From: Phascolarctobacterium faecium DSM 14760
GTDB taxonomy: Bacteria; Bacillota; Negativicutes; Acidaminococcales; Acidaminococcaceae
DNA length: 64,000 nucleotides
Reading direction: 5' to 3'
Assembly: GCF_003269275.1 (NCBI RefSeq)
Contig: NZ_QLTS01000001.1
Coordinates: 714,768 to 778,767 of the forward strand
Shown: positions 7,560-17,309 of the stretch, piece by piece
Numbering within the stretch: position 1 is the first letter of the stretch
Layout of the letters: the number at the start of each line of letters is the position of its first letter
The notes under the pieces: model-generated
What the model saw: the letters and a program-made list of their open reading frames with translations, nothing else
Database searches by the model: none
Told to the model about the DNA's origin: nothing
Position numbers and translations under genes: made by a program

Positions 7560-7991
7560 TTAACCCTTTTCCGCCAGCGCTCTGAGCGCTAAAGCATAAC
7601 CCTGGAAACCCAACCCGCATATCTGCCCCAGGCAGGCAGCAGCCGTTACTGATCTATGCCGAAATTCTTCCCTGGCATGGATATTGCTCAAATGCACTTC
7701 TATCGTCGGCAAAGCCACTGCTTTTATAGCATCCAGCAAAGCTACACTGTAATGCGTCAATGCCGCAGGATTGATAACGATACCGTCAAATTTTCCATAA
7801 GCCTGCTGGATCAGCGTGACTAATTCACCTTCAAAATTACTTTGCCTTACTTCTACTTCCACATTTAATGCCGCAGCTTCCTGCCCGATATATTCACACA
7901 AGGCTGCATAATCCTGTTGACCATAAATATTTTTTTCACGTACGCCCAACATATTGATATTCGGACCATTCAAAACCAAAATTTTTTTCAT
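7560..7991 (-). CDS. aroQ: 3-dehydroquinate dehydratase, type II
   Basis: 143 residues, the normal size for the type II enzyme, which converts 3-dehydroquinate to 3-dehydroshikimate in the cytosol. Family motifs are present in order: ILVLNGPNINMLGVREKNIYG with the catalytic Tyr, EVRQSNFEGELV, GIVINPAALTHYSVALLDA, and VEVHLSNIHAREEFRHRSV with the catalytic His and Arg. It is the last gene of the aromatic operon; its ATG overlaps the aroK stop as ATGA. Confidence 0.96.
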   Translation of the reverse strand: MKKILVLNGPNINMLGVREKNIYGQQDYAALCEYIGQEAAALNVEVEVRQSNFEGELVTLIQQAYGKFDGIVINPAALTHYSVALLDAIKAVALPTIEVHLSNIHAREEFRHRSVTAAACLGQICGLGFQGYALALRALAEKG

Positions 7992-8488
7992 CAGCTTTCT
8001 CTCCTTGCCAACTCCAGTAATGCCTGTAACGCTGCTTCCCGCTCACCGTTATTATCTATGATATGATCGTGATACCTGCGGTATAGTTCGATTCGTTCCG
8101 CATACAAGTCAAAAACTTTCTGCCGCCCTGCTGCTAATAAAGGGCGGCTTTCTGTATCTATGTCCTGTACAATTTTTTCTGGCAGCCTGTCTATAAAAAC
8201 GATAATGCCGCCGTTTTTTAATACCTCGATATTCTCTGAGCGTTTGACTACACCGCCGCCGGCAGCGATCACACACCCTTCCAATTCTGACAGATGCCTG
8301 ACTGCCCTGGTTTCAGCATCGCGGAAGCACGCTTCGCTGACTGCGAACAGCTCCTTGATAGTCTTGCCTTCCAGCTTTTCAAGCACATTATCAGCATCAT
8401 AAAAAGGACGCTTCAGATGCTGCGCCAACAATCTGCCCAAAGTTGATTTCCCGCAGCCCGGCATTCCGATCAAGACGATATTTTTCAT
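7991..8488 (-). CDS. aroK: Shikimate kinase
   Basis: 165 residues. The Walker A motif GMPGCGKSTLGRLLA (residues 8-22) is followed by the shikimate-binding DADNVLE, FRDAE and AAGGGVV segments and the lid-region arginine (TESRPLL). It phosphorylates shikimate to shikimate 3-phosphate with ATP. Stop and start codons overlap those of aroQ and aroE, so the end of the operon is tightly coupled. Confidence 0.95.
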   Translation of the reverse strand: MKNIVLIGMPGCGKSTLGRLLAQHLKRPFYDADNVLEKLEGKTIKELFAVSEACFRDAETRAVRHLSELEGCVIAAGGGVVKRSENIEVLKNGGIIVFIDRLPEKIVQDIDTESRPLLAAGRQKVFDLYAERIELYRRYHDHIIDNNGEREAALQALLELARRES

Positions 8489-9306
8489 AGCTGTTTTTCC
8501 ATCTCAGCGGCAACTTTTAAAATGACATCGTTTGAAATTTCTCTTTGCAGCCAGATCTCCTCTGCTGCTACAGCCTGAGCTACCAGCATAAGCATCCCGT
8601 TCACAGCCTTTTTACCCAGCTGCTCTGCCTGCTGCAAAAACAAAGTTTTAGCGGGATTATAAATCAGATCGACCGCTGTTTCAAAATGCTCGACAGTTTC
8701 CAGACCTACCGGCGATACATCGGTCTTGGGATACATCCCAACAGGAGTGCAATTGATCAGTAAATCACCGGTATAACGCTCTAAATGTACGTAGTTGACG
8801 AATTGCGTCGGTACACTACTGCACAAGGTTTTCATATACGGAGCTATGCTTTGAGTATTACGGGAAACTAAAAATATCTTAGAAACACCGTGATCGATTA
8901 AATATTGAAGTACAGCTCTTGAAGCGCCGCCCGTACCTAAAACAGCCGCGCTTTTGCCCTGTACTTCGATGCCGTTATTTTCCAGCAAACGCCCAAAACC
9001 TGCATAATCGGTATTATAGCCGCGAATTGCACCGTTATGAAAATGGATCGTATTAACGGCTCCAATAGCCTGCGCTTCCATACTTAAAGTAGTCAAAGCA
9101 GCCATTACATTGATCTTGTGCGGAATGGTTACATTGACTCCGCAGTATTTACCACGCAATTCATGCACGCTCGCATATAATTCTTCAGGAGGTATCTCCA
9201 GCAGATCATATGTTCCTTCGACACCCAATTCTTTAAAGATCAGCTGATGTATCTGCGGTGATAAACTGTGTCCCAAACGCGCTCCAATCAAGCCAAAATG
9301 AACCAT
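8485..9306 (-). CDS. aroE: Shikimate dehydrogenase (NADP+)
   Basis: 273 residues. The N-terminal substrate domain has the GARLGHSLSPQIH motif and the catalytic lysine and asparagine region (VNVTIPHKINVM, GAVNTI). The C-terminal half has the nucleotide-binding loop VLGTGGASRAVLQYL. It reduces 3-dehydroshikimate to shikimate. A GGAGG site lies 8 bases upstream of the ATG at 9306, and the stop overlaps the aroK start. Confidence 0.95.
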   Translation of the reverse strand: MVHFGLIGARLGHSLSPQIHQLIFKELGVEGTYDLLEIPPEELYASVHELRGKYCGVNVTIPHKINVMAALTTLSMEAQAIGAVNTIHFHNGAIRGYNTDYAGFGRLLENNGIEVQGKSAAVLGTGGASRAVLQYLIDHGVSKIFLVSRNTQSIAPYMKTLCSSVPTQFVNYVHLERYTGDLLINCTPVGMYPKTDVSPVGLETVEHFETAVDLIYNPAKTLFLQQAEQLGKKAVNGMLMLVAQAVAAEEIWLQREISNDVILKVAAEMEKQL

Positions 9307-9318
9307 AACACAAACCTC

Positions 9319-10443
9319 CTATCTACCATCGGCAGGATAATTGCCTAATATCTTACAATATGCACAGCTGTCGGAAAGCTGTTCTAATGCCTGACGTACT
9401 CTTTCTTCACGCAGGTTGCCTACCAGGTCGATATGGAAGAAATATTCCCATGATTTACCTTCGATCGGCCGGGATTCCAAATTCATCATATTTAAACCGC
9501 TGTGATAAAAATGTCCTAAAGTCCTGTATAATGACCCCGGTTCATGTTTTACTGCCACTACTACCGTAATTTTATTAGCATTAGGCGCCTGTTCCGCTTC
9601 GTTAGAAATGACGATAAACCGGGTATAATTATTGGAATTATAGTTGATATTGGCGGCAAGAATCTGCAGCCCATACATTTCCGCAGCCTGCTTACCAGCC
9701 ACCGCCGCCAAATGCTTATCCTGCTTTTCCCTCACTGTTTCTGCACTTTTAGATGTGCTGAAATAAGGCACTAACTCCATCTGCGGATACTGATGAAAAA
9801 ACTCTTTACTTTGTGCAAAGCCCTGCGGATGTGAATAAACAGTAGTAACATCTTCGAGCTTAGCACCTTGAACGCCCAAGAGATTGTGCTCTATTTTCAC
9901 GCACTGCTCACCAACAATAGAACAATCGTGATGCCGCAGCAGATCATAAACTTCGGTAATACCTCCGGTCGAAGAATTTTCGATCGGCAAAACACCGTAT
10001 TTGATCTCACCGTTTTTGACCGCCTGCACTACATCCTCAAACAAAGCATAATGATGTCTGTTTATATGCTGTCCTGCAAAATATCTCTCCAAAGCCTGAT
10101 GACTGTAAGACCCCGGCATTCCAAAACAGCCAACCTCCATGACCTCCTCCTGCGGCAGAACTCGCGGCTCTGCCAGCAGTACATGCTCCAAAGCCCTGCT
10201 CTGCTCCATGATGGTCGTCATCATCGCTGTAACAGCCGGTGCATACTCTTTATGCTGTAAACGCATACAGGCCTTTGAGAGCACCTGAGCTTCCCGAGCC
10301 GCATCAAGCACCGGCAGCCCCTGCTGTTTTTTATAGGCCGCAACTTCCAGCACTGCCTCCATCCGTTCTTCCAACGCCGCAACCAGCTGGGCATCGATCT
10401 TGTCGATACGGCGGCGGATCGCCTCTAAATCCAATTTTTCCAT
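9319..10443 (-). CDS. pheA: Bifunctional chorismate mutase / prephenate dehydratase
   Basis: About 374 residues with three domains: AroQ-type chorismate mutase (1-85, LEAIRRRIDKIDAQLVAALEERM), prephenate dehydratase (about 105-285, GMPGSYSHQAL, YGVLPIENSSTGGI, and the catalytic TRFIVIS), and a C-terminal ACT domain (about 295-370, HEPGSLYRTLGHF, NLESRPIEGK) that typically binds phenylalanine. It makes phenylpyruvate from chorismate. ATG 10443 has GAGG 7 bases upstream and begins 2 bases after the aroC stop; an alternative GTG at 10449 overlaps that site. Confidence 0.95.
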   Translation of the reverse strand: MEKLDLEAIRRRIDKIDAQLVAALEERMEAVLEVAAYKKQQGLPVLDAAREAQVLSKACMRLQHKEYAPAVTAMMTTIMEQSRALEHVLLAEPRVLPQEEVMEVGCFGMPGSYSHQALERYFAGQHINRHHYALFEDVVQAVKNGEIKYGVLPIENSSTGGITEVYDLLRHHDCSIVGEQCVKIEHNLLGVQGAKLEDVTTVYSHPQGFAQSKEFFHQYPQMELVPYFSTSKSAETVREKQDKHLAAVAGKQAAEMYGLQILAANINYNSNNYTRFIVISNEAEQAPNANKITVVVAVKHEPGSLYRTLGHFYHSGLNMMNLESRPIEGKSWEYFFHIDLVGNLREERVRQALEQLSDSCAYCKILGNYPADGR

Positions 10444-10445
10444 GC

Positions 10446-11543
10446 TCACACCTCACCGTCAATATCAGCAGTCAACAGCATATCTAAAACAGTCCAGGCC
10501 GTAACACCTTCCACGACAGGTACTGCCCGCTGCACGATACAGGGATCATGACGACCTTTAATTTCCAATACCGTATTCGTATGCTCAGACACATTTATCG
10601 TTTTCTGCGGCAGGGAAATCGAAGGCGTTGGCTTGAACCCTACCTTGAATACAACAGGCATGCCATTGGTAATCCCACCCAAAATACCGCCGTTATTATT
10701 AGTTTCAGTTCGCACAGAATCTCCATCATAATACAGCGGATCATTAGCCTGTGAACCGGTGCTGCGGCAGAAACCGAAGCCCATACCAAACTCCAGCCCC
10801 TTTACCGCCGGAATAGAAAACAGCACATGTGCCAGACGGCTTTCCAGTGAATCAAAAAATGGTTCGCCCAAACCAGCCGGCAAATTAAGCGCCATGCACT
10901 CAATACTGCCGCCAATAGAATCCTGACGCTCACGCGCTTCCAAAATCAGCGCCTGCATCTCTGCCCCACGTACATCGTCCAATACGGCAAATTCCTTCTG
11001 CCGCAGACTCATCAATAATTCAGTCTCTTCTCCCAATGGGTCAAACTTCCTGTCAAAAATCTCACCCACATTATTGATATGTGCCCCTATAACAATGCCA
11101 TACCGAGCCAGAGCCTGCTTGGCAACAGCTCCCATAAAAACCAGCGGCGCAGTCAGTCGTCCGGAAAAATGCCCGCCGCCACGGTAATCATTGAAGCCTT
11201 TATATTTGATCTTACCGGAATAATCAGCATGCCCCGGTCTCATATTATCTTTTAGAATACTGTAATCCTTAGAATGACTATCGCTGTTAGGGATCAGCGC
11301 ACACAAAGGTGTCCCCGTCGTCCGCCCTTCAAAAACACCACTCTGGATCAAAAAAGCGTCTTTTTCCTGACGCTGTGTCGAAAGCAGATTGCGGCCCGGA
11401 GCACGCCTTTCCATCTCGCGTTTAATAAAATCAATATCAATTCCCAGCCCCGGTGGCAACCCGTCAATCACAAGACCAATAGAAGCACCATGGGATTCGC
11501 CGAAAATCGTCATTTTTATTTTTCTGCCATAAACACCGCTCAT
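10446..11543 (-). CDS. aroC: Chorismate synthase
   Basis: 365 residues, the usual length. Signature motifs include FGESHGASIGLVIDGLPPG at the N terminus, RMRPGHAD-type (NMRPGHADYSG), the FMN-site GGGHFSGRLTAPLV, and DSIGGSIECMA. It converts EPSP to chorismate and needs reduced FMN. The start overlaps the end of aroA (ATGA), consistent with a single coupled operon. Confidence 0.96.
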   Translation of the reverse strand: MSGVYGRKIKMTIFGESHGASIGLVIDGLPPGLGIDIDFIKREMERRAPGRNLLSTQRQEKDAFLIQSGVFEGRTTGTPLCALIPNSDSHSKDYSILKDNMRPGHADYSGKIKYKGFNDYRGGGHFSGRLTAPLVFMGAVAKQALARYGIVIGAHINNVGEIFDRKFDPLGEETELLMSLRQKEFAVLDDVRGAEMQALILEARERQDSIGGSIECMALNLPAGLGEPFFDSLESRLAHVLFSIPAVKGLEFGMGFGFCRSTGSQANDPLYYDGDSVRTETNNNGGILGGITNGMPVVFKVGFKPTPSISLPQKTINVSEHTNTVLEIKGRHDPCIVQRAVPVVEGVTAWTVLDMLLTADIDGEV

Positions 11544-12853
11544 ATACTTTCACCCGTTCCCACAGTTTTGATCATTCCGCCTAAGGCTGTAAAATCCTGC
11601 CAAAATTCAGGATATGATTTTTGAACACATTCGCTGCCACTAATAATAACCGCCTTTTCGCAAACCAGACTCGCTACCGCTAAACTCATCGCGATGCGGT
11701 GATCGTTCCAGGAATCAACGCAGCCGCCCTGCAGACCTTCCGGCCGCCCATTGATAATCAGCCCGTCAGACAGTTCTGTAACTGCAGCTCCCAGTTTATT
11801 CAATTCACTGGTCATCGCTGCCAGACGGTCACACTCTTTAATACGCAGCCGTCCTGCATTGATGATTTCAGTTGTACCTTCACTGACCGCTGCCAGTACC
11901 GTTAAGACAGGAATGATATCAGGACAGTCTGCCGCATCGATAACTACACCATTAGTCGACGCACTCGAGGCCGTATGATTACCTTCGGCATCACAGGTTA
12001 TTTTTCCTCCCATCCGGTTGATAATATCCGCAACGACCATATCCCCCTGCAACGAGTCCCTGTTTAGTCCAGTACAGGTAATCTGCCTGCCCAGCGTGCC
12101 GGCTACAAGCCAGAACGCCGCCTGAGACCAGTCACCTTCCACCATGTTCCTGCCGCAGCGATACTTCTGACCGCCGCCGATATGATATTTATAATAATTT
12201 TCGTGTTCGATAACGATTCCGTATTTTGCCAGACACGACAAGGTCAGATCCACATAGCTCTGCGACTCCAGTGCAGAAGTAATTTTCAAAACAGAATCGC
12301 CTGCAAGCAGCGGCAAAGCAAACAGCAGACCGCTGATAAACTGCGAGCTGACATTACCGGGAAGCTCGTAATCGCCGCTTTTCAGCACACCGTTCACCGT
12401 CAAAGGCAAATACCCGTTAGAGGCAGTTGTATAAGACAGCCCCTGCCTGTCAAAAATATCATAATAAGCCTGCAGCGGACGCGTTACCAGCTTTCCGTGA
12501 CCAGTAAATGTCAGCGGCTCACCGCACAATGCCCCCAGAGGGATCATAAACCTCAATGTCGAACCTGATTCTCCGCAATCGACAGTACTTTGCGAAACTC
12601 GTACATTACCACTGCCATTAATAGCCAAAGCTGTGCGTCCTGATCTTTCTGAAGGAACTTTTTGAAAACCGATCCCCAATGCAGTCAGACAGCGTAGAGT
12701 AGCTTCCATATCGTCAGACATACTGATATTATCAACAATACTGGTTCCCGCCGACAGTCCGGCACAGATAATTTCCCTGTGCCCCATGCTTTTAGATGAC
12801 GGCACGCAAACACTGCCGTTGAGCTTTGCCGGTGTAATCTTCAATGTCGTCAT
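11540..12853 (-). CDS. aroA: 5-enolpyruvylshikimate-3-phosphate synthase
   Basis: 437 residues forming the two-domain EPSP synthase fold. Visible motifs: VPSSKSMGHREIICAGLS (substrate-binding lysine and serine), DCGESGSTLRFMIPL, GNVSSQFISGLLFALPL, and the C-terminal RIKECDRLAAM and WNDHRIAMSLAVA segments. It condenses shikimate 3-phosphate with phosphoenolpyruvate. The sequence resembles class II-like divergent enzymes less than class I; glyphosate sensitivity cannot be judged here. Confidence 0.95.
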   Translation of the reverse strand: MTTLKITPAKLNGSVCVPSSKSMGHREIICAGLSAGTSIVDNISMSDDMEATLRCLTALGIGFQKVPSERSGRTALAINGSGNVRVSQSTVDCGESGSTLRFMIPLGALCGEPLTFTGHGKLVTRPLQAYYDIFDRQGLSYTTASNGYLPLTVNGVLKSGDYELPGNVSSQFISGLLFALPLLAGDSVLKITSALESQSYVDLTLSCLAKYGIVIEHENYYKYHIGGGQKYRCGRNMVEGDWSQAAFWLVAGTLGRQITCTGLNRDSLQGDMVVADIINRMGGKITCDAEGNHTASSASTNGVVIDAADCPDIIPVLTVLAAVSEGTTEIINAGRLRIKECDRLAAMTSELNKLGAAVTELSDGLIINGRPEGLQGGCVDSWNDHRIAMSLAVASLVCEKAVIISGSECVQKSYPEFWQDFTALGGMIKTVGTGESI

Positions 12854-12861
12854 GCGCTCTC

Positions 12862-13923
12862 CTATCCAATATAGGCAGGTATATCCTGCCAGTCTATTTT
12901 ATGCAGGCGTCCGACGCCTATTTTTTCAATAATTACCAGGTTAATTTTTTTACCGCTCTTTTTTTTATCCAAAGCCATTGCCTGTAAAATTTCCTGAGCA
13001 TCAAATACTGCAGTTACCGGCAAAGCAAACTTTTTCAGTACGCGGCTCAACTCCTCTGCAGTACCTGCTGCCGTAAGTCCCAGCTTCTCCGTTTGACGCG
13101 TCATTTGTACCATACCGATGCCAACGCCTTCACCGTGAGTATAAGTAGTAAAACCGCAGCATTTTTCAATAGCATGTCCGATAGTATGCCCAAAATTCAA
13201 CAGCATACGTTCTCCTGTGTCAAATTCGTCTTTTTCAACGATCCGCGCCTTGATATTACAGCAGGTCTCAATAATACTGTCCGCCTGCTCCAGCAGCTCC
13301 TGATCACTTTTAACAGCAGCGATCTGAGCAAACAGACCGGCATCGCGAATACAGCCGTATTTGATCGCCTCAGCCAAACCATCATGCAAAAACCGCAGCG
13401 GTAAAGTTTTCAATAAATCCGGATCTATAAATACTGCTTTTGGCTGATAAAAGCTGCCTGCCAGATTTTTGCCTGACGGCAGGTCAATAGCCACCTTGCC
13501 TCCTACGCTGCTGTCGATCTGCGCTAAAAGCGAGGTCGGTACCTGAATAAAATCAATGCCGCGCAAAAAGGTAGCTGCCGCAAATCCGCCTAAATCGCCC
13601 GGCACACCACCGCCCAAAGTCAGGATCAAATCACTGCGCGTCAAGCCTGCCCGTGCCAGTTCGTCATAAACCTGACCCAGCACAGTTAAATTTTTACTTT
13701 GCTCACCGGCGGCAAAAACTATCCTCGTAACCTCAAACCCGCTGGCAGCCAGGCTGCGTTCCAGCCTCTCGCCATATAAGGGATCTACGTTGCTGTCGCT
13801 GATGATTGCCGCTTTTACCGCCTGAGAAAGCACTCTGGCCTTTGCCCCGATCTGATCCAGCAGCCCGGCTGCGATTTCAATATTATATGTTTTCTCACCT
13901 AACGCTACTGTAATCGTACGCAT
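12862..13923 (-). CDS. aroB: 3-dehydroquinate synthase
   Basis: 353 residues. NAD- and metal-binding motifs of the family are present: TLGGGVPGDLGGFAAATFLRG, QVPTSLLAQIDSSVGGKVAIDL, ENLAGSFYQP-like (KNLAGSFYQPKAV), and the metal ligands in LNFGHTIGHAIE and YTHGEGVGIGM. It cyclises DAHP to 3-dehydroquinate. The ATG at 13923 overlaps the tyrA stop by one base (TGATG). Confidence 0.95.
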   Translation of the reverse strand: MRTITVALGEKTYNIEIAAGLLDQIGAKARVLSQAVKAAIISDSNVDPLYGERLERSLAASGFEVTRIVFAAGEQSKNLTVLGQVYDELARAGLTRSDLILTLGGGVPGDLGGFAAATFLRGIDFIQVPTSLLAQIDSSVGGKVAIDLPSGKNLAGSFYQPKAVFIDPDLLKTLPLRFLHDGLAEAIKYGCIRDAGLFAQIAAVKSDQELLEQADSIIETCCNIKARIVEKDEFDTGERMLLNFGHTIGHAIEKCCGFTTYTHGEGVGIGMVQMTRQTEKLGLTAAGTAEELSRVLKKFALPVTAVFDAQEILQAMALDKKKSGKKINLVIIEKIGVGRLHKIDWQDIPAYIG

Positions 13924-14795
13924 CAGTACAAATCCTTTCTTTTAATCGCAGCTTCCCGCATCATTTCCTGCAGGGCCTGCGCGTCGGCAGCTGTCAGCGC
14001 TTCGCGCCAGCGTTCCAACTGCTGGCTGAATGCAGCTAATTCCTGCAGAACGTTTTCCCGGTTCGCCAAAAACAAATCGCTCCATAAATACGGATTGATA
14101 TCTGCGACCCTTGTTCCATCGCGAAAACTGCCGGCAATAAAATATTTCGTATTTTCATTATAAGAAGCACTGTTGATCAGCGCTACCGCTAAAGCATGAG
14201 GCAAATTACTGGTATAGGCGATAATGCGGTCATGCTCAACGGCATCAACCTGCACTACCTGCCCGCAGCCAATCGCGCCTGCAAAGCTGCTCAGCCATTC
14301 GATCGCCCCACTGCTGTTAAAAGCTGCCGGCACCACGATATAATTGGCACCGTCAAAAATCTCGGCCTGGGACATACCCAAACCGCTGCCTTGACGGCCG
14401 GCCATCGGATGCCCCGCAATAAATTCCATCCTTCCGGTAAGCAGTCGCTGCACGTCCTCAGGCAAGCTGCCTTTAATGCCTGTAGCATCGGTTATCAAAA
14501 CATCACTCTGCAAAAAAGGCACCGCACTTTTTACAAAATCCAGCGTAGCTGCCGGATAAACCGAACAGATCACTACATCTGCCGCCTGCAGTCCTGGGCC
14601 TGCCCCACAAAGAGCTTCGTCGATAACAGCCTGTTCCTGAGCCTGCCGCAGCACCTTGCCGTCAGTATCGACACCGATGATCTTCTTTACGCCCAGGCGC
14701 CTCAGCGCTTTGGCATAAGAACCGCCGATAAGTCCCATACCTACCACAGCAAAAGTAAGCTGCTGCCAATCCGTGCTTCTAAAACCACTTTCCAC
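13923..14795 (-). CDS. tyrA: Prephenate dehydrogenase
   Basis: About 290 residues. A Rossmann motif GMGLIGGSYAKAL opens the protein, followed by the catalytic GHPMAGRQGSG histidine region and DAVEHDRIIAYTSNLPHALA. It oxidises prephenate to 4-hydroxyphenylpyruvate for tyrosine. It has no C-terminal ACT domain, unlike many Gram-positive TyrA proteins, so feedback control may rest on the leader and the DAHP synthases. GTG at 14795 is 8 bases after GAGG; another GTG at 14804 overlaps this site and is less likely. Confidence 0.92.
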   Translation of the reverse strand: MESGFRSTDWQQLTFAVVGMGLIGGSYAKALRRLGVKKIIGVDTDGKVLRQAQEQAVIDEALCGAGPGLQAADVVICSVYPAATLDFVKSAVPFLQSDVLITDATGIKGSLPEDVQRLLTGRMEFIAGHPMAGRQGSGLGMSQAEIFDGANYIVVPAAFNSSGAIEWLSSFAGAIGCGQVVQVDAVEHDRIIAYTSNLPHALAVALINSASYNENTKYFIAGSFRDGTRVADINPYLWSDLFLANRENVLQELAAFSQQLERWREALTAADAQALQEMMREAAIKRKDLY

Positions 14796-14845
14796 TACGT
14801 TCACCTCGTTAAACTTTCTCCATTCTACAATCCTACGATAATTTG

Positions 14846-14903: not shown

Positions 14904-15917
14904 CTACATCTCTCTGCCGATTATTTGCGCAATGCCCTTCAATTCACCCATCAGGTGTGCAAAGCGTTCCGGCTTCAGTGATTGTGCCCCGTCACACAGT
15001 GCATGCTCGGGATCGTTATGTACCTCAATGATCAATCCGTCTGCACCGGCTGCGATAGCAGCTTTGGCCATCGGTTCAACCATCCACCACATGCCGGAAG
15101 CATGGCTCGGATCAATGACGATCGGTAAATGGCTTAGTTTTTTTACTGCCGGGATCGCGCTCAGATCCAAAGTATTACGGGTATAAGTTTCAAAGGTACG
15201 GATACCGCGTTCACACAAAATAACATTATCATTACCGCCGGCCATAATATACTCAGCCGACATGATCCATTCTTCTATCGTCGCTGATAAACCACGTTTC
15301 AGCAAAATTGGTTTATTTGTCTTGCCAAGCTCCTTCAAAAGCTCGAAATTCTGCATATTCCGGGCCCCTACCTGAATAACATCCACATCTTCCACGAAAC
15401 GTTCGATTTTATCAGCTGACATGATTTCGGTAACGATCGGCAGGCCAGTTTCCTGTTTAGCGATTTTTAAGAGCTCCAATCCCTTTTCTTTCAATCCCTG
15501 GAAAGAATACGGTGAAGTACGCGGCTTGAAAGCTCCGCCCCTCAGCATAGCGGCTCCGCCGAGCTTTACCGACTTAGCAACGGAAATGATCTGCTCTTCG
15601 GTCTCTACCGAGCATGGACCGGCCATAACGATGATTTTTTTGCCGCCGATCTTGATCCCGTTGACATCCACTACGCTGTCTTCCGGATGGAACATCCTGT
15701 TTGCCCGTTTGAACGGCTCCTGCACACGCATGACCTTTTCTACCCAATCGTTAACGCGCAGCAGATTGATATCTAAAGTACTGGTATCTCCGATAACGCC
15801 CAGGATCGTCATATTCACGCCGACGATCTCATTGATCTGGAAGCCGTTATTGATCAGTCCGTTTTTAATCTTCTCACATTCCTGCATCGGTGCGCCTGGT
15901 TTCATTACAATAATCAT
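14904..15917 (-). CDS. aroF: DAHP synthase (type I-beta), copy nearer tyrA
   Basis: 337 residues. The N-terminal 70 residues form a ferredoxin-like regulatory domain ([20 protein letters not shown]), then the barrel with [31 protein letters not shown], and [11 protein letters not shown]. It condenses erythrose 4-phosphate with phosphoenolpyruvate. The regulatory domain matches the Thermotoga-type enzyme known to be inhibited by tyrosine or phenylalanine. A paralogue of the same length lies 48 bases upstream in the operon; the two proteins are very alike from residue 70 onward and differ most in the regulatory domain. Confidence 0.95.
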   Translation of the reverse strand: MIIVMKPGAPMQECEKIKNGLINNGFQINEIVGVNMTILGVIGDTSTLDINLLRVNDWVEKVMRVQEPFKRANRMFHPEDSVVDVNGIKIGGKKIIVMAGPCSVETEEQIISVAKSVKLGGAAMLRGGAFKPRTSPYSFQGLKEKGLELLKIAKQETGLPIVTEIMSADKIERFVEDVDVIQVGARNMQNFELLKELGKTNKPILLKRGLSATIEEWIMSAEYIMAGGNDNVILCERGIRTFETYTRNTLDLSAIPAVKKLSHLPIVIDPSHASGMWWMVEPMAKAAIAAGADGLIIEVHNDPEHALCDGAQSLKPERFAHLMGELKGIAQIIGREM

Positions 15918-15965
15918 TTTTGTTCTCTCCTTTTAATTTATATGGTTAAATTTAATTATAACCTG

Positions 15966-16979
15966 TTATAGCTCACGTCCAACGGCTCCTGCTATGATCT
16001 TCAGATCCTGCATCAACCTGCCGAAGCGTTCAGGTTTCAGGGATTGAGCTCCGTCACATAACGCATGCTCAGGATCATTATGCACTTCAATGATCAGTCC
16101 GTCAGCACCTACGGCTACTGCTGCCTTAGCCAGCGGCTCTACCATCCACCACATACCAGCCGCGTGGCTGGGGTCAACCACCACCGGCAAATGACTGAGT
16201 TTTTTTACTGCCGGGATCGCGCTCAGATCCAAAGTGTTGCGAGTATAATTTTCAAAGGTTCGGATACCACGCTCGCATAAAATAACACTATCATTACCGC
16301 CGGCCATAATGTATTCAGCCGACATCAGCCACTCCTCTATCGTCGCAGACAAACCGCGTTTCAGCAAAATCGGTTTATCTGTCTTGCCCAGCTCCTTCAA
16401 AAGCTCGAAATTCTGCATATTGCGGGCGCCTACCTGAATCACATCCACATCTTCTACAAAACGTTCGATCTTATCTGCTGACATAATTTCTGTAATGATC
16501 GGCAGCCCGGTAACAGCTTTAGCCTCCTTTAATAAATCCAGTCCGATTTCCTGCAGTCCCTGGAAAGAGTATGGAGAAGTACGCGGCTTAAAAGCGCCGC
16601 CACGCAGGATCGCAGCGCCCATTTGCTTCACATCCTCCGCCACGCCGATAATCTGTTCCCGCGTCTCTACTGAACAAGGGCCTGCCATTACCGTGATCTG
16701 TTTGCCTCCCACCTTCACCCCGCATACATCTACGATACTGTCTTCCGGGTGAAACATCCTGTTAGCACGTTTATAAGGCTCCTGCACACGCATAACCTTG
16801 TCAATGCAGTCATATACTCTCAGCTGATTCATATCGAAGGCAGCCGTATCGCCTACTACACCGAACAGGGTAAAATTAGCACCGCGGCTTTCATGGATCT
16901 GAAAACCCTTACCTTCCATCAAGCTTTTTACTCTCAATTCCTCTTCTGCGGGAATCCCCGGTTTCATTACTATAATCAT
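15966..16979 (-). CDS. aroF: DAHP synthase (type I-beta), first gene of aromatic operon
   Basis: 337 residues, same architecture as the next gene: ferredoxin-like regulatory domain (1-70) and the class I-beta barrel ([43 protein letters not shown]). It is the first structural gene after the aromatic-rich leader peptide and attenuator. Differences from the paralogue cluster in the first 70 residues ([24 protein letters not shown]), which suggests the pair may respond to different end products. ATG 16979 is preceded by AAGGAGTGGAGATAA. Confidence 0.95.
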
Positions 16980-17028: not shown

Positions 17029-17055
17029 AATCAGGCCTCGTAAGAGAGCCTGATT
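17029..17055 (-). terminator. Attenuator terminator in the aromatic operon leader
   Basis: AATCAGGC and GCCTGATT pair (with a further GAG/CTC extension), followed on the minus strand by eight T residues, 50 bases before the first DAHP synthase ATG. It lies between the leader peptide stop and the operon, where a conditional terminator is expected. Confidence 0.85.
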
Positions 17056-17088
17056 AAAAATTCATCTTCTTATTTACAGCAGCATATC

Positions 17089-17232
17089 TCAGCTACAGTA
17101 TCGGCATCTGTTTACGGTAATAGAATTATGCAGTTTTGAGCAAGTAAAATAACCAGCGCTAAAATAAAAATAGCCCCGGCTAAAGTCAAAAGCATATTCA
17201 TTTACCCAATTAGTTCTCAAAACAGATTCCAC
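17089..17232 (-). CDS. Aromatic-rich leader peptide (probable attenuation peptide)
   Basis: A 47-codon reading frame from GTG 17232 to TGA 17089. AGGTGG lies 7 bases upstream of the GTG. The peptide carries 11 aromatic residues: W9, Y13, F15, F17, Y21, F22, Y23, F24, Y28, F29 and Y45; ten of these lie within residues 9-29. It is between a consensus promoter and an intrinsic terminator, directly upstream of ten genes for tyrosine and phenylalanine synthesis. That arrangement is the classic form of ribosome-mediated attenuation: stalling at Tyr/Phe codons when charged tRNA is low would favour an antiterminator. An alternative antiterminator pairing (near 17100-17105) is only tentative. Another frame, 17201-17112, encodes a hydrophobic 29-residue peptide but is preceded by no good ribosome-binding site. 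Confidence 0.8.
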   Translation of the reverse strand: MESVLRTNWVNEYAFDFSRGYFYFSAGYFTCSKLHNSITVNRCRYCS

Positions 17233-17280
17233 GATCAACCCACCTAATTTAAATTTCTTGTGTAAAACTTAATTGTTGTT

Positions 17281-17309
17281 ATTTTAGACCCGTATCAAAA
17301 AGGTGTCAA
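17281..17309 (-). promoter_or_regulatory. Promoter of the aromatic amino acid operon
   Basis: Minus-strand TTGACA (17309-17304), 17-base spacer, TAAAAT (17286-17281). It would start a leader transcript of about 295 bases ahead of the first structural gene. Confidence 0.85.

Follow-up and report, generated by a model that had tools for sequence, protein, structure and literature searches.

Amino-acid operons of Firmicutes are usually ascribed to control by T-boxes, TRAP or repressors; attenuation by leader peptides is usually held to be mainly proteobacterial and actinobacterial. For genes of aromatic amino acid synthesis, the aroR leader that precedes aroF in Corynebacterium glutamicum acts on limitation for Phe and not for Tyr, according to the passage of a review that covers Neshat 2014 (PMC11802643). 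A second candidate, the uORFC-13-1 motif, has been proposed before aroF from 24 sequences, all of them from Acholeplasma or environmental, with at least one Phe codon (PMC8632094). Leader-peptide attenuators for His have been described in the B. cereus group, Peptostreptococcaceae and Erysipelotrichales, with HisR recorded instead for the Negativicutes in the same work (PMC9413887, PMC2965389). A reading of the locus described below, made from its sequence alone, had named the gamma-proteobacteria for known ribosome-mediated attenuation of aromatic genes and knew of no case in diderm Firmicutes. In line with the second statement, no description of such a leader in Negativicutes or Clostridia was found in a literature search that had most subscription papers outside its reach. 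The first was too narrow, because precedents lie beyond the gamma-proteobacteria in C. glutamicum aroR-aroF, as the review summarises it (PMC11802643), and in the proposed uORFC-13-1 of Acholeplasma (PMC8632094).

The locus lies in a 64,000-nucleotide stretch of the genome of Phascolarctobacterium faecium DSM 14760, hereafter the window, and a promoter, an aromatic leader ORF, a terminator and a ten-gene operon are confirmed on its minus strand. The sigma-70-type promoter, TTGACA-17 bp-TAAAAT (17281..17309), matches 11 of 12 consensus positions and lies where the sequence-only reading had placed it. Between it and the first structural gene stands an ORF with a Shine-Dalgarno sequence, AGGTGGG (17239..17245), 6 nt before a GTG start; the ORF, for which translation is predicted, runs for 47 codons from GTG at 17232 to the stop codon TGA at 17089 (17089..17232), is identified from the sequence and from relatives, and reads MESVLRTNWVNEYAFDFSRGYFYFSAGYFTCSKLHNSITVNRCRYCS. 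Its 5 Tyr, 5 Phe and 1 Trp residues are concentrated in codons 9-29 (W9, Y13, F15, F17, Y21, F22, Y23, F24, Y28 and F29, that is 4 Tyr, 5 Phe and 1 Trp), with the eleventh at Y45. Thus the sequence-only reading counted correctly ten aromatic residues between positions 9 and 29 and the YFYF run at 21-24; its tally of ten Tyr/Phe codons and one Trp codon holds for the whole ORF but not for codons 9-29, which have nine Tyr/Phe and one Trp, the tenth Tyr/Phe codon being Y45. An intrinsic terminator ahead of the structural genes, AATCAGGCTCTCTTACGAGGCCTGATT-TTTTTT (17029..17055), is present where it had been placed, with -14.6 kcal/mol for the stem and a run of six U, and its 5' arm and loop (17054-17039) double as the partner of an antiterminator. 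When the P. faecium genome was scanned with leader profile A1, the leader ORF matched at E 1.1e-17. Since dinucleotide shuffles of the intergenic region contain an ORF with a Shine-Dalgarno sequence and at least 7 aromatics in 12 codons in 0.65% of cases, the ORF of one sequence is suggestive and not conclusive, and comparison must decide.

The ten genes behind the terminator, which had been called aromatic, were named as such by protein-family models, in the order aroF, aroF, tyrA, aroB, aroA, aroC, pheA, aroE, aroK, aroQ. Two DAHP synthase genes come first, aroF copy 1 (15966..16979) and copy 2 (14904..15917), both by NF006421 and TIGR01361. They are followed by tyrA (13923..14804), whose best models are prephenate dehydrogenase, below the equivalog cut-offs, and by genes for 3-dehydroquinate synthase (aroB, 12862..13923, TIGR01357), EPSP synthase (aroA, 11540..12853, TIGR01356), chorismate synthase (aroC, 10446..11543, TIGR00033) and chorismate mutase-prephenate dehydratase (pheA, 9319..10449, NF008865 and TIGR01805). 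The operon continues with shikimate dehydrogenase (aroE, 8485..9306), which scores 196.5 bits with TIGR00507 against a cut-off of 200.2, shikimate kinase (aroK, 7991..8488), for which the scores of the shikimate kinase models are under their cut-offs, and type II 3-dehydroquinate dehydratase (aroQ, 7560..7991, TIGR01088). The tandem DAHP synthase genes (14904-16979) are 79% identical to each other; copy 2 clusters with the single aroF of Phascolarctobacterium and copy 1 branches outside, and their products may be isozymes that differ in feedback sensitivity.

Conservation of the leader was examined in 52 loci of the Acidaminococcaceae, here taken to include Phascolarctobacterium, Acidaminococcus and Avacidaminococcus, that had sufficient readable DNA upstream of aroF, the window among them. 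Codons for the regulated amino acids are both enriched and conserved: an aromatic-rich leader ORF was found upstream of aroF in 52/52, 38 of the 52 passed a density criterion of at least 7 aromatics in 12 codons plus a Shine-Dalgarno sequence, as compared with 0.05 expected from dinucleotide shuffles, and a terminator precedes aroF in all but one. The sequence-only reading had staked itself on conservation of the aromatic codons in relatives, and they are conserved in every family locus, with Tyr and Phe interchanging position by position. For instance, three adjacent columns of the leader have Tyr:Phe ratios of 31:15, 44:4 and 15:34. Such swaps at the same position are expected if tRNA load matters and the peptide does not. 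A chance origin of the leader ORF from AT-rich DNA was considered and ruled out by the shuffles.

Downstream of the aromatic codons lies the antiterminator 5' element, CGUAAACAGAUGCCGAU (17100..17116), identified by its spacing in relatives and by its pairing with the 5' arm and loop of the terminator. The element, CGUAAACAGA(U)GCC, recurs in this pairing when the RNA is folded up to the terminator loop, and in the window 17116-17100 pairs with 17054-17039 through CGUAA/UUACG, AGA/UCU, GCC/GGC and GAU/AUC. It starts 29 nt past the F29 codon, and in nearly all family members it begins 27-30 nt past the last Phe codon of the GYF motif; the offsets vary with the extent of the motif match and are mostly 29 nt when set to the same Phe codon. 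The stop codon, by comparison, may lie as far as ~35 nt downstream of the element or as far as 17 nt upstream of it, a shift of more than 40 nt among relatives. Because the spacing of the element is nearly constant across relatives, the VNRC tail of the window peptide is explained as an RNA element. Thus the leader that the sequence-only reading proposed to fold does hold an alternative pairing, conserved among relatives and exclusive with the terminator.

Quantitatively, the element when placed by position has a duplex energy better than 95% of shuffles in 26 of 38 distinct family sequences, with a pooled p of 3e-26 that is only indicative, as the sequences are related. Shuffles of the whole leader-to-terminator region of single sequences give p-values that are mostly weak and not significant. 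Covariation of the element inside the family is slight because the element is nearly invariant there. Outside the family, Clostridium pairs an AAUGAGU element with GCUCAUU in the terminator (e.g. CUAAUGAGU with GCUCAUUAG), and in f26, another family of Negativicutes (L237-L239), the element CUACGGGUAA pairs with the terminator UUACCCGUAG; as these pairs are unlike that of the Acidaminococcaceae, different sequences pair at the equivalent place. A cross-clade test adds only modest support, with -13.5 kcal/mol for cognate pairing as compared with -10.7 kcal/mol for the terminators of other clades.

The effect of a ribosome on this pairing was estimated with a footprint model, in which the ribosome covers 17 nt upstream of the start of the A-site codon and 13 nt downstream of it. 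In the model the median number of expected antiterminator pairs among 46 family loci is 5.98 for a ribosome standing at the last Phe codon, as against 0.03 for one at the stop codon (Wilcoxon p 1.3e-6), and in the window it falls from 3.9 to 0.0. The stop codon position masks the element and the sensor position frees it in 35 of the 46 loci, including the window, so that a ribosome that has reached the stop codon would in most cases cover the element. The order is reversed in 7 of the 46, mainly because the stop codon is ~14-17 nt upstream of the element, just past the assumed footprint. In nearly all states of the full-length RNA that were tested, the terminator prevails at equilibrium, and the switch must therefore be kinetic, decided during transcription; known attenuators likewise decide while the RNA is being transcribed. 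Free, untranslated RNA forms a median of 6.9 expected antiterminator pairs in the model, and an extra hairpin of the trp type that would mask the antiterminator arm in untranslated RNA is not predicted. Such a hairpin is not required of every attenuator in the trp/pheA class, and its absence thus marks a variant. Since the free RNA is predicted to form the antiterminator, an untranslated leader should give read-through, unlike that of the trp operon.

The computed results on the parts and how they are conserved, on the alternative pairing and on the geometry fit a model in which the whole aro-tyrA-pheA operon is very probably controlled by a ribosome-mediated transcription attenuator that senses the charging of tRNA-Tyr and tRNA-Phe. 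A ribosome would begin to translate the 47-codon leader behind RNA polymerase and, with charged Tyr- and Phe-tRNA at hand, would reach the stop codon and cover the element CGUAAACAGA-GCC (17116-17100), whereupon the terminator at 17055-17029 would form and transcription would end. When Tyr- or Phe-tRNA is short, the ribosome would stall at the Tyr/Phe codons 13-29 and leave free the element, 29 nt past the last Phe codon, which could then pair with the nascent 5' arm and loop of the terminator (AUCA-GGC-UCU-C-UUACG), such that the polymerase would continue into aroF. We infer the coupling of translation to transcription and the sensing of both Tyr and Phe; sensing of Trp is the least certain. 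The sequence-only reading of the leader as a Tyr/Phe attenuator finds good support in the comparison with relatives.

A further element of the leader is a hairpin within the ORF, P1, which spans codons 17-28 (UAGCCGGGGCUA-UUUUUAUUU-UAGCGCUGGUUA, 17150..17182) and was recognised by pairing, covariation and a covariance model. Its loop holds aromatic codons (YFYF), and a U-rich UUUU follows 3'. Because U-rich codons come after the hairpin, P1 may be a pause site that would probably hold the polymerase until the ribosome catches up. Across 38 diverse sequences the paired cells of P1 are standard in 84%, as compared with 24-44% when the partner is slid, and its covariation score was reached by 0 of 500 shuffles. 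Furthermore, the Ser codons of the P1 stem are AGC in 66/66 cases while Tyr codons alternate freely between TAT and TAC, which argues for a constraint on the RNA. A covariance model of P1 scores 56.8 bits at the leader, with the runner-up place in the window at 17.8, and a search of 517,562 bases of AroF loci with a P1-only model gave 24 matches up to E 0.1, each of which is on the coding strand and falls shortly before the aroF match, although some of these loci were in the training set. A second, weak match of the P1 model in the P. faecium genome (28.3 bits, E 0.02) was judged to be chance, with no aromatic gene and leader there.

The leader is not confined to the Acidaminococcaceae. A leader profile built from 27 leaders matched in 82 of 201 Negativicutes genomes, and 41 of the matches, in 40 genomes of which 39 are outside Acidaminococcaceae, share the strand of an aroF gene and end 87-209 nt before it. 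Where a strong match has an identifiable downstream gene, that gene is an aromatic gene every time. Matches in G177, G210, G018 and G021 were judged to be chance, with no aromatic gene and leader. Of 79 AroF loci, the majority from other Bacillota, the density criterion selects 36 where 0.23 are expected, and aromatic leaders are present in Clostridium magnum, C. tyrobutyricum, C. oryzae, C. tetanomorphum, Lachnospiraceae and Oscillospiraceae. Thus the scope of diderm Firmicutes suggested by the sequence-only reading was right as to the Negativicutes, which do carry the leader, and too restricted as to the other Bacillota. In Negativicutes relatives with split aro operons, extra copies of the leader stand ahead of other aromatic genes, named here from their translations: aroA-aroC-aroK (L195), aroA-aroC (L196), aroK (L198), tyrA-aroA-aroC (L199), tyrA (L200) and pheA-aroK (L201). 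This arrangement suggests a dispersed attenuator regulon. In another genome of the same order (L204, G124:C1:1819000-1826500), three leader matches follow one another at intervals of ~2 kb, and two or more of them stand immediately ahead of an aroF gene.

Other designs apparently exist as well. Family f26 has a distinct short aromatic leader, QYFYWFFIQRTGKELF, before aroF, and some other leaders before aroF retain just a short aromatic run, e.g. MTNQISLTAKQYFYWFFIQRTGKELFVMR. Short leaders in which Tyr/Phe codons form dense runs also precede aroF in many Oscillospiraceae, in other Clostridia and in a single Lentisphaerota MAG (L063, L066, L091, L100, L102, L105, L110 and L111); these are apparently aromatic attenuators of other designs. 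Two Acholeplasmatales loci from the rumen (L046, L048) were considered as candidates for uORFC-13-1 and set aside, as aroF abuts the preceding gene there and has no leader.

The length of the peptide motif raises another explanation, namely a TnaC-like nascent-chain arrest in which FSxGYFYFSAGYF would stall in the exit tunnel in response to the level of free aromatic amino acids and not to empty A-site codons. The motif, of about 13 residues, is kept from Negativicutes to Clostridium and exceeds a plain run of regulatory codons. Nevertheless, arrest by the peptide is improbable: Tyr and Phe interchange freely in the leader, the invariant AGC of the Ser codons points to the RNA of P1 and not to the peptide, and leaders such as MTNQISLTAKQYFYWFFIQRTGKELFVMR preserve just the aromatic run. 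Less probable again, to the point of being very unlikely, is that the leader ORF is a true small protein gene and the terminator its own. It has a promoter, a Shine-Dalgarno sequence and a terminator, and some homologues reach 50-60 codons. However, both the length (34 to 60 residues) and the sequence of the C-terminal part vary among homologues, the stop codon shifts freely against the RNA element, the ORF is linked to aromatic genes, and a search of the leader peptide against NCBIfam and Pfam gave no match.

A T-box or other metabolite-binding riboswitch working the same terminator, with the aromatic ORF incidental, is about as improbable as the small protein gene, for although T-boxes precede aroF in other Negativicutes, the leader site has no match to T-box RF00230 at gathering score and nothing credible in Rfam at a relaxed threshold, the ORF and antiterminator take up most of the leader RNA, and the 13 T-box matches of the P. 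faecium genome, 8 of them above the family cut-off, are all away from the aro leader. These matches precede leuS, valS, leuA, the acetolactate synthase small subunit gene, ileS, serA, thrS, pheS, glyQ and others, as named from translations. One T-box leader (98 bits) lies in the window at 300-504 on the minus strand, before a gene that appears to be serA (D-3-phosphoglycerate dehydrogenase) and runs past the left window end. The match at pheS (L257, G000:C1:532312-532516) reaches 87.5 bits, short of the gathering score of 93. Taken with the aro leader, it indicates that in this genome a Phe T-box probably serves pheS and a translated leader the aro operon, and two sensors of Phe-tRNA may coexist in one cell.

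Outside the set of strong leader matches, a T-box was found upstream of aroF in 5 of 15 Negativicutes loci inspected, and as either a T-box or a leader can precede aroF within one class, two sensors of tRNA charging exchange places at the same gene. A wider proposal, which we offer tentatively and which leans a little to the doubtful side, is that the leaders with P1 form one unnamed family of cis-regulatory RNAs of Bacillota (Negativicutes, Clostridium, Lachnospiraceae and Oscillospiraceae), in which the sensor codons would lie in the loop of a conserved, polymerase-pausing hairpin opened by the reading ribosome, and that this family spread to separate aro, tyrA and pheA units and replaced T-boxes. 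An AroF tree labelled by P1 did not separate a single origin from transfer. If a conserved Tyr/Phe attenuator extends across a large part of the Negativicutes and Clostridia and trades places with T-boxes at one gene, the way in which one sensor of tRNA charging replaces another would become directly testable, and the many natural variants of one attenuator would allow a study of ribosome-polymerase coupling in anaerobic gut bacteria. The leader would also be a regulator to disable in strains of Clostridium or related bacteria engineered for aromatic products.

The class of mechanism is already known from E. coli pheL and C. glutamicum aroR; the lineage, a mixed Tyr/Phe sensor over ten genes, the conserved hairpin P1 that encloses the sensor codons and the constant distance to the antiterminator look new. 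As in the E. coli pheA (pheL) and pheST leaders, a ribosome would choose between terminator and antiterminator and Phe codons would sense (PMC11802643), but the E. coli leaders control pheA or pheST only, as compared with mixed Tyr/Phe codons and a ten-gene operon here, and unlike pheL this leader has no separate hairpin predicted to mask the antiterminator arm in untranslated RNA. The likeness to C. glutamicum aroR lies in the placing, ahead of a DAHP synthase operon, of a short ORF that contains Phe-Tyr-Phe codons, at which stalling raises transcription in the review's account (PMC11802643). By the description in that review, aroR, from Actinobacteria, has one Phe-Tyr-Phe run, whereas the ORF here has about ten aromatic codons arranged around a conserved internal hairpin. 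The uORFC-13-1 motif is similar, again by description, in having a proposed uORF with one or more Phe codons, a promoter, a terminator and an extra paired substructure before aroF (PMC8632094). The His attenuators of Firmicutes likewise have a leader peptide in place of a T-box in some lineages, for His there and for Tyr and Phe here. Like the T-box RF00230, which stands before aroF in other Negativicutes families, the leader would be a sensor of tRNA charging that acts on a terminator; unlike this leader, the T-box, of which there is none at this site, binds tRNA directly and without translation.
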